A stretch of DNA of 64,000 nt, from NCBI GenBank assembly GCA_934476515.1, contig CAKSNZ010000007.1:14082-78081 (forward strand). Reading direction: 5' to 3'. The notes under the pieces were generated by a model. That model was not told the DNA's origin, made no database searches, and saw only the letters and a program-made list of their open reading frames with translations. Below, piece by piece: positions 31,035 through 62,928 of the stretch. Numbering within the stretch: the stretch's first letter is position 1; the number at the start of each line of letters is the position of its first letter. The translations under genes and the position numbers were made by a program. This stretch comes from an uncultured Ruminococcus sp. (GTDB lineage: Bacteria > Bacillota > Clostridia > Oscillospirales > Acutalibacteraceae).

Positions 31035-31040
31035 CGGTTA

Positions 31041-57190: not shown

Positions 57191-57206
57191 GTCCCAAAAA
57201 TGGAAC
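57191..57206. repeat. GTCCCA palindrome, left flank of the CRISPR-Cas region
   Basis: GTCCCAAAAATGGAAC is an inverted copy (15 of 16 bases) of GTCCCATTTTTGGGAC at 62765-62780. The two bracket the small gene, array, cas genes and part of the lone-repeat unit. No transposase is seen. Confidence 0.4.
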
Positions 57207-57735: not shown

Positions 57736-57765
57736 AAGGAGTGATAGCAAAAACTATCACTCCTT
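57736..57765. terminator. Bidirectional terminator ending the CRISPR array transcript
   Basis: Arms AAGGAGTGATAG and CTATCACTCCTT with a 6-base loop; GTTTTT follows on the plus strand and TTTTTGTT on the minus strand. Its stem core is the same as that of the terminator of the lone-repeat RNA at 62796-62821. Confidence 0.85.
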
Positions 57766-57801
57766 GTTTTTATACTTTTCTAATACTTTCAATAATGTAA
57801 T

Positions 57802-57966
57802 TAGGATTAATATGAAAATTCTTAAGGTTGATTAAACTATGTAATGCACCATAAAGGACTTTCTTATCTACAATAGTAGAAATTCTAAGGGTTGATTAAA
57901 CTTAATGTAGCTATTGCCCACCACAGAGCCATCTACAATAGTAGAAATTCTAAGGGTTGATTAAAC
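57802..57966 (-). CRISPR. Two-spacer type V-A CRISPR array
   Basis: 36 bp repeats; the crRNA strand is minus. The repeat starts GTTTAATCAACCCTTAG and ends AATTTCTACTATTGTAGAT, the Cas12a processing hairpin. Full copies lie at 57931-57966 and 57866-57901. A decayed last copy at 57802-57837 keeps the GTTTAATCAACC side but has lost the hairpin. Spacers are 57902-57930 (29 bp) and 57838-57865 (28 bp). Transcription runs from the cas side toward the terminator at 57736-57765. Confidence 0.93.
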
Positions 57967-58094: not shown

Positions 58095-58370
58095 TTATGT
58101 AACAACAAGCAAAGGCTCATCTTCATTTTTAGCATAACCAAACTTTTGAACTTTGCATGAACTACTTAACTGAAAGATATACACACTATCAGATTGGTCA
58201 AACATTTTCAAAAATTTATTATTAATATCTGCAATAATATTGTTCAGTATTCTTTCACTATTATCAATCTCATATACAGAATACTGCAACATATGACCAA
58301 AACGCTTAATGTATTTTGAAAATTTACTGCGTTTTCTGTCATCAGATATATCATAACTAATTATAATCAT
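58095..58370 (-). CDS. cas2: CRISPR-associated endoribonuclease Cas2
   Basis: 91 residues. MIIISYDISDDRKRSKFSKY with the conserved Asp after the first strand, and the IKRFGHMLQYSVYEI motif. Cas2 is the structural core of the Cas1-Cas2 integrase. It is intact, but its partner Cas1 is missing here, so spacer acquisition is not expected unless supplied in trans. It starts 1 bp after the end of the cas1 remnant. Confidence 0.92.
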   Translation of the reverse strand: MIIISYDISDDRKRSKFSKYIKRFGHMLQYSVYEIDNSERILNNIIADINNKFLKMFDQSDSVYIFQLSSSCKVQKFGYAKNEDEPLLVVT

Positions 58371-58371
58371 A

Positions 58372-58467
58372 TTATTCTCCTATGTCAAATACAGGGAATT
58401 TATCCACTTCCAATTTCTTCATAAATGCTCTGTAGTAGGACTGAATACAGAGAAAAATTGAATCTTT
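58372..58467 (-). pseudogene. cas1: cas1 C-terminal remnant
   Basis: A start-less frame ending EKDSIFLCIQSYYRAFMKKL and then EVDKFPVFDIGE before TAA, 1 bp upstream of cas2, exactly where cas1 ends in type V-A loci. It overlaps the end of the cas4 frame in another frame. About 300 upstream residues of Cas1, with all catalytic residues, are absent. The identity of so short a tail rests mainly on position and the alpha-helical RAFMKKLE style. Confidence 0.55.
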
Positions 58468-58745
58468 TTCTTTCGTTCTATTAATTGGAATTTTTTACTA
58501 TCATACAAATCAATTTTTCCACTTAAATTATACTTTTCAGAATACACTGTTATTGATTGAAGCATTGACTTTTTGCTTGAATATGTACCACTGTCCACTG
58601 TTGTGTGGACAGCAGTACCATTAAGTTGGTCTGAATTTTGATATGTCATTTTTTCAGTATCATAATCAAGTGAATGAAAATAAATTGACACAGGACAAAA
58701 GATAAAATCATTAAGATTAGAAATAGCAATAGGGTTTTCACTCAC
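58419..58745 (-). pseudogene. cas4: Truncated cas4
   Basis: 108 residues. The N-terminal Cas4 part is clear: SNLNDFIFCPVSIYFHSL with the first cluster Cys, LNGTAVHTTVDSG, GKIDLYDSKKFQLIERKKK with the nuclease Asp and Lys region. It then runs into FFSVFSPTTEHL and stops. The C-terminal Cys cluster and the rest of the RecB-like fold are missing. The GTG start overlaps the cas12a stop (GTGAGTGA). A single deletion from within cas4 to the last codons of cas1 explains it. Confidence 0.82.
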
Positions 58746-61700
58746 CTAAATCACCTTTTTGGGCAAATTTCAGCCATTCCTTTTTGCTGATTTTCAACAA
58801 CTCGTTATTGGTTACATCATCAGTATTTTTCAATTTGTTAATAATCATCAAACCTTTTCGTGCAATGTTATATGCACCATTTGCATCACCGTCTTGTGGC
58901 TGTGTCGGTACTTCTTCATTGGACTTTTTGTAGTTTTCACTATAATAGAAGTTACCGTTTCTATCCTTTACAGGTGAGATGATGTAATCAACATCACTAT
59001 TAATTTCAGAATTTCTCAACTGAACAGTCAGTTTGAGAGTATCCATAAATGACTTTAGGAGTTCCTTACTATTAACTAATAGTAGTTTTTCCTTAATATT
59101 ATCATTGACAAAATCAATACCTGCATTATTAAAAGTTTCTTTGAACTTTTCGGTAATATTCACCATTCTACTTGCCGGTTTATTTCTTGAATCTTTGTAA
59201 TACTGTATTCTGTTACCATAGGAACAGATTGTCCACTTCTTACGATAATTATAACTACCTTGTGGGAACTTATCGTAATCAACATCAAACTCAAAGTAGT
59301 CTTCACTTCGATTATATCGAATATCATCAATATTACTAATGAAATTGTGAGTCTTTGGTATTGTCTCATACTTAGGATAAAGCAGATTTGCAAAACCGGT
59401 TACCGGATCAATCTTACTAGTTAGATATGGGTCAACATAAAAGATAATACCACTTTGTTTTCCGATTCTTTCAAATGTTTCAAACTTATTTGTAAGCTGA
59501 TATGCCTTTAATAGTCCACCACATTCTTTGTAGTCGGTACCTTTATCAACATAATAATTTAGCTTATTAATAAGCATAGTTTCAAACTTTTGATAGACTT
59601 GTTTTTCAACTTTTGTTCTACCTCTCTTGAAACTACCATTTAGGTTTTCCATCACAACAATTGCATCATATTGAACAATAAGTTTACAAATTTGATGTAC
59701 AACCTGACTAATGTAACCGTCTTTCAGTTCCTTAATTGTTTCAATAGTTTTCCAAGTTTTTCTTGCCTCTTGTCTTTCTTTTTCTCTAATGTTAAGCTTT
59801 TTCTGATAATCAGTTTTGTATTTCTTACCATTGTAACTGTTTTCAATAATATTGAAGTTGATTTGGTCAACTATTACTCCATCACTGCTGATTATAGTTA
59901 CATAGATAAGGTTTCTTTCACCTCTATCAATACCGATAATATTGTTCTTATTTGACTTCTTAAGAAGTTCTCTAACACTATTATTTAACCAATAATGGTC
60001 AGGCTGATTACAATTCATTGCTAAAGTTAAATGTAGAGAAAATTGATCTTCAGTAAAGCGTTTGTTCTTTACTATTGCATAGTTAAATTTGCTATAATAC
60101 TTAGCTTTTTCATCATCTGTAGGATTGTCTTTATCCTTTACTTTATCTTCACATGTACGCTTAATAATTTCAACATTTGCATCATGTTGAAATTTTGAAT
60201 CTGTCTTGATACTTGCAGGACGATAGAACATTTCTGCTCCACCCTGCAATTTGTATACTAAGTTCTCTAAATTCCTATCATCAAATAGCATTTGGAAATA
60301 CATAGTATGTAGATTTTTCTTACCTTTACTGTACTCAGAAAAGTCCTTGTTGTAGATTTTGAAAAGGTAAAGTTTTCCTTGTTCTACTAATGAAAGTAAT
60401 TGTTTTTCAGATACTTTTACTTTGGTGATTTGGTAGGCTTGATTGTTAACATCATCAACAAATTCATTAAAACTTCCATACTCATCAGCTGACTTAAAAA
60501 CAAAATTATACTTACAATAATATTCCTTTGTTCTTGCAATATAATACTCTAAATATTCCTTTAGATTGTCTTTGTTAAAGTTATCACTTGTAGTTTTGTA
60601 ACTTTCGGTTTTTCTAATTCTATTGATATTTTCAGGTAGATACTGATTCTTTAGTTCTTCAAGAACAACATTAACACCATCATCATTTTTTCTACCATTT
60701 TTCTTTACAATCTTACCATCAACAAGCATAAGATTTTGAATAACTCTACCCGGATTTGGAATTTGATTGTACTCAATCTTAACCATTGTATCACTATCAT
60801 TTTCAGGAGCATTATACTGAGTTTTGAACTCTCTCTTGGTTTCTTTGTCCATTACCCCAAGATAATACAATCCATCTTTCATAAAAAGTTGTGCTGAATA
60901 GTCAGTTTCTTTGCTATGTTGCCATCCACCTAGGAACTGTGGATTATCAAAAGACAGCTTAATTTTGTCAAGAGAATAAGGCTTTTCTGTAATGTAATTT
61001 CTTACTTTGTCATATAGCTTATCAATATATCTTGACTGTTCAAACCATTTTGTAAAATTACCATAGAAAAGTTCATCCTTGCCACTTTCTTTTCCCGTAC
61101 CGGTTAGTATTTTCACAAAACTTTCTAATGATTTAACACTATCTAAAAAGTCCTTAATAAGTGCTACATCTTTTTCACTTGTTTTTAGACTCTTATTTTC
61201 CGGATAATCAGTAGATAGCAAATCTTTTACTGACTGATATTTGTTTTCGACTTCAGCAGTACATCTATGGAAATCACAACTAAAGTAATCTGTAATTTTC
61301 TTGCTATTAATATCTTCTTCAAGAGATGTTTCAATTAAATCTTGCAACTGATTAATTGAAAAGCTTTCTGACTTTTTATATACATTACGTCTTTTGTCAT
61401 TATACTTATCAATATCTTTTGCTTTCTCCGGATTGTTGACTTTATCATACCGGTCATTCCATAAATTACAGAATACTGACCAATCATTGAACATATTTTG
61501 CGATAAATTAGTAAGTGAAATATCATTCCTTACGAACACACCATCAAGGTTATATTCAGATAAATTATCAAAAATATTTTGAAACTCGGTTATGGTTTCT
61601 TTTAATGCAGTGAAATTCTTTTCAGCATTACCGGTATTATAGAAATCATAAACTGCTTTTAGAAGTTCATTGTCATTTTCAAACTTACCAGGAAGAAAAG

Positions 61701-62574
61701 AACTAGTCTTTTTTTGACTACCAATCTGTTTATATAGTCGTTTTAAATTAGGGACTTTATGTCCTTGTTGTGCAGTTTGGTTATGGAGATTAATGTACTC
61801 ATTAATCCCCTTAACCTTGTCATTACCTATAATGGCATTATAGGTATCAATGCCTGACTGTGAAAGAACACAGTTGAAATAATCCAAGGTAAACATATCA
61901 TCAACTGTTGTATCATATACACCCTTAAAGTTATTTCTAAGTTCTTCTAGATCACTTGGTTTTAGTTCTTCTAAAACCTTTTCATATGCTTTAATATTAT
62001 CAATAAATTTTGGTAAATTATCATTAATACATCTATAAGGAATTGCCGTTGACTGTTCCTTATCTGTATACATATTTTTACAATTATCGTAATAACTATT
62101 AAAATAAGTTGAGAAAGAAGAAAGATTTGCTATATCTTCAAGGGCCTTTTCATCATCTTCAAGATACTCAGGTAGATAATCATTAAGAATTTTCTTATTT
62201 AATCGTTTCAGAATTTCTTTTAAAAAATCGGCTAATTCTTTCCTTAACTTTTCTTCAGCAGACTTAAACTTCTGTTCATCCCTGTCTTTAGTGATATAAA
62301 GTTCATAGTACTCATCAAGATGCTTTAACTTTATGGGTTTGGAAAGGCATTTGTCACTTTCATCTGCAAGGTACTTTGAAATATACTCCTTGATACGCTT
62401 TGCAGAATCAAGCAAGTCTTTTTCTTTGGATAATCTGTCTTTAAAATCAAAGTTGTCTGCAGTTGCACCTATTGGAATAAGGCTGAATCTTAAAGTTTTT
62501 TGAATATTGTATAGATCTGTGAAAAAATCAATTTTTCTACATTCTTCTGAAAATTTGTTAATGTTGATTGGCAT
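58738..62574 (-). CDS. cas12a: CRISPR effector nuclease Cas12a
   Basis: RNA-guided DNA nuclease that also processes its own pre-crRNA. About 1278 residues. The REC lobe starts FFTDLYNIQKTLRFSLIPIG. The RuvC residues are Asp883 (NIIGIDRGERNLIYVT), Glu976 (IVVMENLNGSFKRGR) and Asp1230 (DGDANGAYNIARKG), and the bridge helix and Nuc regions (VQLRNSEINSDVDYI) are present. All three acidic residues are intact. The frame extends to an ATG at 62590-62592, but AAAGGA lies 9 bases before the ATG at 62572-62574 (MPININKFSEE), so that start was chosen. A lone repeat-guide RNA upstream appears to target its leader. Confidence 0.97.
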   Translation of the reverse strand: MPININKFSEECRKIDFFTDLYNIQKTLRFSLIPIGATADNFDFKDRLSKEKDLLDSAKRIKEYISKYLADESDKCLSKPIKLKHLDEYYELYITKDRDEQKFKSAEEKLRKELADFLKEILKRLNKKILNDYLPEYLEDDEKALEDIANLSSFSTYFNSYYDNCKNMYTDKEQSTAIPYRCINDNLPKFIDNIKAYEKVLEELKPSDLEELRNNFKGVYDTTVDDMFTLDYFNCVLSQSGIDTYNAIIGNDKVKGINEYINLHNQTAQQGHKVPNLKRLYKQIGSQKKTSSFLPGKFENDNELLKAVYDFYNTGNAEKNFTALKETITEFQNIFDNLSEYNLDGVFVRNDISLTNLSQNMFNDWSVFCNLWNDRYDKVNNPEKAKDIDKYNDKRRNVYKKSESFSINQLQDLIETSLEEDINSKKITDYFSCDFHRCTAEVENKYQSVKDLLSTDYPENKSLKTSEKDVALIKDFLDSVKSLESFVKILTGTGKESGKDELFYGNFTKWFEQSRYIDKLYDKVRNYITEKPYSLDKIKLSFDNPQFLGGWQHSKETDYSAQLFMKDGLYYLGVMDKETKREFKTQYNAPENDSDTMVKIEYNQIPNPGRVIQNLMLVDGKIVKKNGRKNDDGVNVVLEELKNQYLPENINRIRKTESYKTTSDNFNKDNLKEYLEYYIARTKEYYCKYNFVFKSADEYGSFNEFVDDVNNQAYQITKVKVSEKQLLSLVEQGKLYLFKIYNKDFSEYSKGKKNLHTMYFQMLFDDRNLENLVYKLQGGAEMFYRPASIKTDSKFQHDANVEIIKRTCEDKVKDKDNPTDDEKAKYYSKFNYAIVKNKRFTEDQFSLHLTLAMNCNQPDHYWLNNSVRELLKKSNKNNIIGIDRGERNLIYVTIISSDGVIVDQINFNIIENSYNGKKYKTDYQKKLNIREKERQEARKTWKTIETIKELKDGYISQVVHQICKLIVQYDAIVVMENLNGSFKRGRTKVEKQVYQKFETMLINKLNYYVDKGTDYKECGGLLKAYQLTNKFETFERIGKQSGIIFYVDPYLTSKIDPVTGFANLLYPKYETIPKTHNFISNIDDIRYNRSEDYFEFDVDYDKFPQGSYNYRKKWTICSYGNRIQYYKDSRNKPASRMVNITEKFKETFNNAGIDFVNDNIKEKLLLVNSKELLKSFMDTLKLTVQLRNSEINSDVDYIISPVKDRNGNFYYSENYKKSNEEVPTQPQDGDANGAYNIARKGLMIINKLKNTDDVTNNELLKISKKEWLKFAQKGDLGE

Positions 62575-62599
62575 AAGCATCAATCCTTTCATATATAGT

Positions 62600-62613
62600 T
62601 TTACGGTTATTAT
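62600..62613 (+). promoter_or_regulatory. Predicted Cas12a self-target (PAM plus seed) in the cas12a leader
   Basis: Plus-strand TTTA PAM at 62600-62603 followed by CGGTTATTAT at 62604-62613. These ten bases equal the first ten of the guide-like part of the lone-repeat RNA; beyond them matches are scattered. The site is about 20 bases downstream of the predicted cas12a transcription start and about 26 bases before the start codon. Confidence 0.8.
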
Positions 62614-62638: not shown

Positions 62639-62667
62639 ATTATATATCAGTATCTATAATAATTCAA
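62639..62667 (-). promoter_or_regulatory. Promoter of cas12a
   Basis: Minus-strand TTGAAT (62662-62667) and perfect TATAAT (62639-62644), 17 bp apart; the predicted start of transcription is near 62632. Confidence 0.7.
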
Positions 62668-62764: not shown

Positions 62765-62780
62765 GTCCCATTTTTGGGAC
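62765..62780. repeat. GTCCCA palindrome, right flank
   Basis: GTCCCATTTTTGGGAC, inverted copy of 57191-57206. It lies between the lone-repeat RNA terminator and the cas12a promoter. Confidence 0.4.
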
Positions 62781-62788
62781 TTACCTAT

Positions 62789-62894
62789 AAAAAAAGAGTG
62801 ATAGTTGAAAAACTATCACTCTCAAACTCCATAAAACATACTACGGTTTCATGGACTACAACATAATAACCGATCTACAATAGTAGAAATTCTA
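62789..62894 (-). ncRNA. creR-like Cas12a-regulating RNA (lone repeat plus guide)
   Basis: About 105 nt. It starts at or next to the last 22 bases of the CRISPR repeat (62873-62894, ending CTACTATTGTAGAT, the full Cas12a hairpin). A guide-like segment begins CGGTTATTATGTTG, and the RNA ends in a terminator with arms GAGTGATAGTT and AACTATCACTC (62796-62821) and seven T. It is not part of an array. The first ten guide bases match a PAM-flanked site in the cas12a leader. Short match lengths allow Cas12a binding but not cutting, so repression of cas12a is inferred. Confidence 0.85.
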
Positions 62895-62899
62895 CTATC

Positions 62900-62928
62900 A
62901 TTATATTCTATGTGCAATCTACTGTCAA
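62900..62928 (-). promoter_or_regulatory. Consensus promoter of the creR-like RNA
   Basis: Perfect TTGACA (62923-62928) and perfect TATAAT (62900-62905) with a 17 bp spacer, the strongest-looking promoter in the window. It predicts transcription from the first base of the repeat portion (about 62893-62894). The stretch from here to 63072 shows no gene. Confidence 0.85.

Follow-up and report, generated by a model that had tools for sequence, protein, structure and literature searches.

The window, the whole 64,000-base stretch of DNA analyzed here, contains a cas12a locus with cas2, a putative cas4 remnant and a short CRISPR array, and, upstream of cas12a, a lone Cas12a repeat with a promoter and terminator predicted for it (Table 1). 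The coding sequence of cas12a probably begins at 62574 and not at the listed 62592, because in a blastn alignment position 62574 falls on the ATG of the nearest relative (locus L001 in genome G001), upstream of which stands an AAAGGA sequence. The window Cas12a possesses GIDRGE, MENLNG, and DANGAYN, which we take to be the RuvC motifs of Cas12a. The frame behind cas12a presumably derives from cas4 and is broken in both the window and L001; between cas12a and the array of the window, no cas1-sized frame was found. By eye, the two spacers of the window and the seven of L001 have none in common, so that spacer turnover occurred despite the seemingly dead adaptation genes of the locus.

Table 1. 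Features of the cas12a locus and its upstream region in the window
Feature	Position	Strand	Remarks
Short CRISPR array	57816..57966	-	Two spacers; three repeats, one of them degenerate and two full
cas2	58095..58370	-	PF09827
cas4-like N-terminal remnant (putative)	58419..58745	-	108 aa; without Pfam match; assigned by position and resemblance
cas12a	58738..62592 as listed (probable start 62574)	-	1284 aa; RuvC_1, REC1, REC2, and NUC domains
PAM TTTA	62600..62603	+	TTTA in all eight loci that have a true lone repeat
Seed match to guide positions 1-10, CGGTTATTAT	62604..62613	+	Exact, 10 nt
Predicted cas12a promoter	62639..62667	-	TTGAAT-17-TATAAT; hexamers identical in L001
Palindrome GTCCCATTTTTGGGAC	62765..62780	.	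Between lone-repeat gene and cas12a promoter
Predicted intrinsic terminator of lone-repeat gene	62794..62823	-	Followed by a T-run to about 62787
Guide, first 24 nt	62849..62872	-	Seed is 62863-62872; begins CGGTTATTATGTTGTAGTCCATGAAACCG...
Lone Cas12a direct repeat AATTTCTACTATTGTAGAT	62873..62891	-	3' part same as array repeats; identical in L001
Predicted promoter of lone-repeat gene	62900..62928	-	TTGACA-17-TATAAT; 12/12 consensus bases

The lone repeat stands 260 bp upstream of the PAM and seed site in the cas12a leader. Its predicted promoter, a sigma-70 consensus that stops eight bases short of the repeat, shows no difference to that of L001 (0 of 29 positions), and the start of the RNA would almost coincide with the 5′ end of a mature crRNA. 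Downstream of the guide, the terminator search returned one terminator (mean of 0.0 in shuffled sequences), and the 110-nt RNA folds with a z-score of −5.6, much of which comes from the terminator stem. With a predicted 12-of-12 promoter and a predicted intrinsic terminator of its own, the unit resembles a stand-alone small RNA gene of ∼105 nt. It matched no Rfam family at the gathering score. Within a 33-nt guide, most of the first 11 bases can pair internally (−7.5 kcal/mol), and without trimming of the 3′ end this could hide the seed. The idea that this hairpin acts as a switch was set aside, as one of its pairs is lost in L001.

The guide and the cas12a leader are linked by a short match. 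The sequence-only reading had placed an exact TTTA plus ten guide bases at 62600–62613, and the window sequence confirms this: the match ends at guide position 11 (G versus T), beyond which agreement is only scattered. TTTV followed by the first six guide bases occurs a single time on both strands of the window, at the leader site, whereas the 10-mer without a PAM occurs at three places (the leader site, the guide itself, and position 31035).

A comparison with L001 shows that guide and target have changed together. The cas12a genes of the two loci are 93.4% identical in DNA; G001 and G099 are of one genus, and L087, the locus of G099, is a duplicate of L005 from Ruminococcus bromii. In L001, the guide begins AGGTTATTAT and the leader carries TTTA AGGTTATTAT. 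Over the 142 nt of the lone-repeat gene from −35 to terminator, the two loci differ at one position, guide position 1 (C/A), with guide positions 11–24 being identical. The 14 nt of PAM and seed likewise differ at one position, the one cognate to guide position 1, whereas neighboring leader stretches differ at 8 of 25, 6 of 25, and 10 of 119 positions. The cas12a promoter shows one difference in 29 positions, which lies in the spacer. Thus, the co-variation of guide and leader seed that the sequence-only reading had proposed to look for is present, as one paired change between two genomes. TTTV plus the 10-nt seed of L001 is found once in the 2.4-Mb G001, at the cas12a leader; the reversed pattern is also found once, so that the single genome-wide hit is weak on its own.

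We extended the comparison to other cas12a loci. A single-protein query detected no relatives in the genome contigs. A search of the named genomes with an alignment (A1) of 19 rows (the window, L003, and 17 of 120 listed proteins) yielded 102 relatives, the best 80 of which were used. Among the listed proteins, P0001 (93% identical) represents 976 member sequences. L035, L044, L074, L077, and L081 were excluded from the leader test owing to a partial match or a start at a contig edge, and L002 (same leader as L058) and L004 (without a start) were not counted. This gave 78 tested loci, among them the window, L001, and L003; 70 have at least 300 bp of upstream sequence, and L060 and L061 have their sampled cas12a stretch in common. 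Further searches of 161 genomes of the genus, 394 of the order, and 391 of the class returned known loci (L085, L086, L088, and L093 are loci already counted) and the fragments L095 and L096.

Repeat-like matches were found upstream of cas12a in nine of the 78 loci, and eight of these are true lone repeats: the window, L001, L003, L005 (R. bromii), L026 (Acetobacterium), L036 and L059 (both Moraxella), and L058. The ninth, L022, lacks the conserved flank of the repeat as well as a seed match. All eight true lone repeats find TTTA and a seed match in their own leader, over 9, 9, 10, 10, 11, 11, 11, or 12 bases. As the guides of the window and L001 and those of L036 and L059 are near-identical pairs, these represent six unrelated guides. 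The sequence-only reading had named loci that keep the guide and lose the leader seed as evidence against it; no such locus was found among the eight. Searching for the repeat with three mismatches added no case with a seed of at least 7 nt among the matches listed (at most three per locus). A recognized lone repeat is absent upstream of cas12a in 62 of the 70 loci with at least 300 bp of upstream sequence, indicating that the circuit is dispensable for Cas12a. No cas12a was found on phages, a single plasmid record was found (23% identical), and the cas12a on a viral contig (L089) has no leader repeat.

The lone repeats come in three gene layouts. The window and L001, and by eye L003 and L026, have a separate gene with its own terminator; in L005 and L058, the repeat lies inside the predicted cas12a 5′ leader; and in the two Moraxella loci, it is divergent from cas12a. 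In L005 and L058, the lone repeat is placed behind a predicted promoter but ahead of the start codon; the cas12a mRNA would thus include the guide RNA, and Cas12a could process its own message. In the Moraxella loci, the guide extends into the 5′ end of another reading frame, which by eye encodes a lipoprotein.

Several controls speak against a chance match. Among 400 dinucleotide-shuffled leaders per locus, none reached the observed match length in six of the eight loci, including the window (0/400 with at least 10 nt), and one did so in each of L005 and L058. As a further control, we took 613 sequences located behind array repeats in 58 loci; their PAM-flanked matches to their own leader were at most 7 nt long, a length seen once. 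When the eight lone-repeat guides were compared with the 77 other leaders (616 pairs), the longest matches were 11 nt (the two Moraxella sister loci) and 8 nt (one other pair), with at most 6 nt in the remainder. Based on the shuffled leaders, the array-following sequences, and the paired change in L001, we rejected a chance match.

The same data bear on the view that the lone repeat is a decayed mini-array or a stray immune spacer that matches the leader by accident. The repeat does stand alone, in a degraded locus with a cas4-like remnant, no cas1-sized frame, and a short array. However, none of the 613 array-following sequences matches its own leader over at least 8 nt, and the lone-repeat gene has diverged far less than the DNA around it, its one change being paired with one in the target. 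Moreover, the guide lacks a convincing protospacer: it has no match in plasmids and 12 weak ones in phages (the best being 83% at E = 4). Two viral contigs have 18–19 nt in common with the guide but no T-rich PAM, which by a rough estimate is near chance for such a collection. We consider this view largely refuted and its probability minimal.

Instead, the lone repeat and its guide very probably form a CreR-type RNA gene that directs Cas12a to repress cas12a without cutting, as judged from sequence features. Transcription of the RNA would start at its own promoter and end at its own terminator, and Cas12a would load the product like any crRNA. The complex would then target the TTTA PAM and the 10-nt seed in the cas12a leader, where a 10-bp hybrid is presumably too short to activate the nuclease and yet keeps Cas12a over about +1 to +32. 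Bound in this way, Cas12a would hinder RNA polymerase at the start or escape step. More free Cas12a would mean more repression; relief would come from ordinary crRNAs that compete with the lone-repeat RNA and from anti-CRISPR proteins that block DNA binding or destroy the guide. Because the RuvC motifs are kept, a longer genomic match would risk self-cutting, and the limit of 9–12 nt found in every guide fits with selection for binding without cleavage.

Where the repressor would act depends on promoter calls. These are consensus matches (six promoter-like sites found versus a mean of 4.9 in shuffled sequences) and gain weight only through conservation. The sequence-only reading had put the site about 20 bases past the predicted cas12a start, and measured from TTGAAT-17-TATAAT it indeed lies at about +19 to +32, 26–39 nt upstream of the probable start codon. 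The corresponding site is at +18 to +31 in L001 and at +23 to +35 in L058. In L005, it is at +91 to +103 by the top promoter candidate and at +23 to +35 only by the fourth-ranked one. In the other four of the eight loci, the best-scoring predicted promoter overlaps the site or lies downstream of it: in L003, the site falls into the spacer between −35 and −10, and in L026, L036, and L059 it precedes −35. As the position relative to the promoter varies, one blocking geometry cannot explain all loci. The orientation is fixed: in all eight loci, the guide pairs with the coding strand and the PAM is on the gene side (two-sided sign test over the six guides, about 0.03).

Guides that are complementary to the coding strand in eight of eight loci could also point to an antisense RNA, the seed of which would pair with the 5′ untranslated region of cas12a transcripts and influence their translation or stability, with no binding of Cas12a to DNA. 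The site does lie in the predicted transcribed leader in the window, L001, and L058, and with a lower-ranked promoter in L005. However, the TTTA found in all eight loci is superfluous for antisense pairing, the sites of L003, L026, and the two Moraxella loci are outside the mRNA if the predicted promoters are right, and the window site, at its distance from the probable start, is off the ribosome site. Hence, we regard an antisense RNA as very improbable.

As a variant of repression by Cas12a, the sequence-only reading had proposed that the complex acts as a roadblock to elongation in the early leader. The positions in the window, L001, and L058 agree with this, as does that in L005 if the fourth-ranked promoter is used. 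On the other hand, excerpts of PMC9758054 report that Escherichia coli RNA polymerase approaching As-dCas12a from the PAM-distal side passes it in 47% of encounters, and in 73% with GreB, even with a full hybrid, whereas no read-through was detectable from the PAM side. A 10-bp hybrid should be weaker still, and the sites of L003, L026, and both Moraxella loci are not downstream of the best predicted start. A roadblock to elongation is therefore unlikely, and we favor occlusion of initiation as the likelier mode of autorepression because the polymerase would meet the weak, PAM-distal side of Cas12a.

How tightly Cas12a would hold such a site can be gauged from published work, which is here cited from excerpts. 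PAM plus eight matched bases in background DNA slowed Cas12a about eight-fold, which the authors read as transient binding without activation, and a match without a PAM caused no slowing (PMC13129545). For stable binding, Cas12a needs more matched bases than Cas9 (PMC7054755), so that occupancy at a 10-nt seed may be weak. Of the sequence-only reading, the crRNA-like guide, the PAM, the seed-only match, and the predicted autorepression are supported, whereas the roadblock is not, nor is its statement that binding through a 10-nt seed is established. Its proposal that loss of crRNAs relieves repression has to be reversed: ordinary crRNAs compete for the effector (excerpts of PMC12737573), and their loss should strengthen repression. 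By the same competition, few spacers (two in the window versus seven in L001) would mean stronger repression.

CreR autorepression of type I-B, I-E, and V-A systems was described by Liu et al. (2023, Cell Host Microbe 31:1481; cited via excerpts of PMC13131331 and PMC12737573). As these reviews already report a type V-A CreR, the mechanism is not new, and the window circuit is best assigned, on its sequence features, as a further example. It has in common with CreR a Cas12a repeat outside the array and close to cas, and complementarity to the cas12a promoter or leader that is limited to PAM and seed. The transcription of a small RNA is represented in the window by a consensus promoter and a terminator that are predicted and conserved. 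The crRNA-like RNA, the cognate Cas effector as repressor, and relief by competing crRNAs and anti-CRISPRs, as given in the excerpted reviews, are predicted alike here. To this, our analysis adds the paired seed change, TTTA plus 9–12 nt in eight of eight loci, the fixed strand, and the three gene layouts.

If the assignment is right, the locus offers a clear natural example, complete with a compensatory base change, of Cas12a serving as a repressor via a 9–12-nt hybrid, and a simple rule suffices to detect such circuits in sequence data alone. It has implications for the number of matched bases that Cas12a needs in cells to act without cutting, for the way in which CRISPR systems that have few spacers keep Cas12a low, and for how anti-CRISPR attack could raise it. 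As the strand is the same in all eight loci, the mode of blocking can be tested directly.

Cas9 is reportedly autorepressed by tracr-L, a natural single-guide RNA with which the nuclease represses its own promoter via a short match. The tracr-L form works with Cas9 and tracrRNA, whereas the window features a lone repeat and Cas12a; Cas9 autorepression is also mentioned in PMC13131331 (excerpts). CreTA and CrePA toxin modules likewise employ a crRNA-like RNA with a partial promoter match (excerpts of PMC13131331 and PMC12737573). Their target is a toxin gene, whereas that in the window is cas12a, and no open reading frame of at least 60 amino acids lies between the lone repeat and cas12a. Racrs, too, are single CRISPR repeats outside an array, type V-A included, but are decoys on viruses and plasmids (excerpts of PMC10651486); in contrast, the window repeat adjoins cas12a and has a PAM-flanked seed match in the leader. 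Solitary V-A repeats of phages are known as Racrs, some of which may serve Cas-dependent repression instead, and no mention of a PAM-flanked seed beside them was found in the available excerpts of the same paper.

Solitary Cas12a repeats also occur on viral contigs. From the repeat scan, 80 of 103 stretches were used, 78 of them with one repeat, and a GG variant of the repeat gave 16 more. The viral guides matched one of the 78 cas12a leaders over at least 8 nt in seven of 82 cases and the reversed guides in four of 82. With no clear excess over the reversed guides, phage-made repressors of cas12a were set aside. Exact-pattern searches of viral contigs gave no copies of the window's repeat plus seed or of the Moraxella one.

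Next to the viral repeats, the picture is different. Within 120 nt upstream of the repeat (300 nt on either side for the GG variant), the best PAM-flanked match is either at most 5 nt or 11–12 nt, with nothing between. It reaches 11 nt in six of the 82 viral guides, four of which are one family with identical DNA over 1600 nt, and 12 nt in one of the 16; reversed guides, a control that covers the 82, reach at most 4 nt. Four phage families (L111/L165/L183/L186, L143, L173, and L230) carry TTTA or TTTG plus seed on the strand of the repeat, 19–29 nt upstream of it. These sites stand before a viral gene and by eye adjoin portal-like or capsid-like genes in L173 and L230. In L133, an 11-nt match is 3.8 kb away; over whole loci, reversed guides reach 8 nt.

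Relatives of the gene behind the first phage family carry the repeat in four of nine cases. In L217–L220 (91% identical), PAM and seed are continuous and the repeat is missing. In this family, the repeat was thus either inserted into a PAM-flanked stretch, with duplication of 11 nt, or lost from it. The upstream DNA of L216 is different and contains no repeat, and none is present in L222, a 59% relative of the L173 gene. We tentatively suggest, at less than even odds, that TTTV plus 9–12 matched bases is a general Cas12a operator, found in host cas12a leaders as well as beside solitary repeats of phages. If so, the match would never exceed 12 nt, as in every case seen, and the host seed would be private and co-evolving. 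A PAM that is always on the gene side would let RNA polymerase strip off the repressor, making it a dimmer and not a lock. Phages would place the operator before their own genes, and the Cas12a of the host would switch viral genes.

Two minor features of the window locus are its palindrome and its hairpins. The palindrome upstream of the cas12a promoter, a possible operator of another regulator, has one difference, at its center, in L001, and a near copy lies at 57191–57206, at the opposite end of the locus. The hairpins 3′ of the array (57752–57772) and of the lone-repeat gene (62786–62806) have a common stem, with a 21-nt inverted match of 86%.
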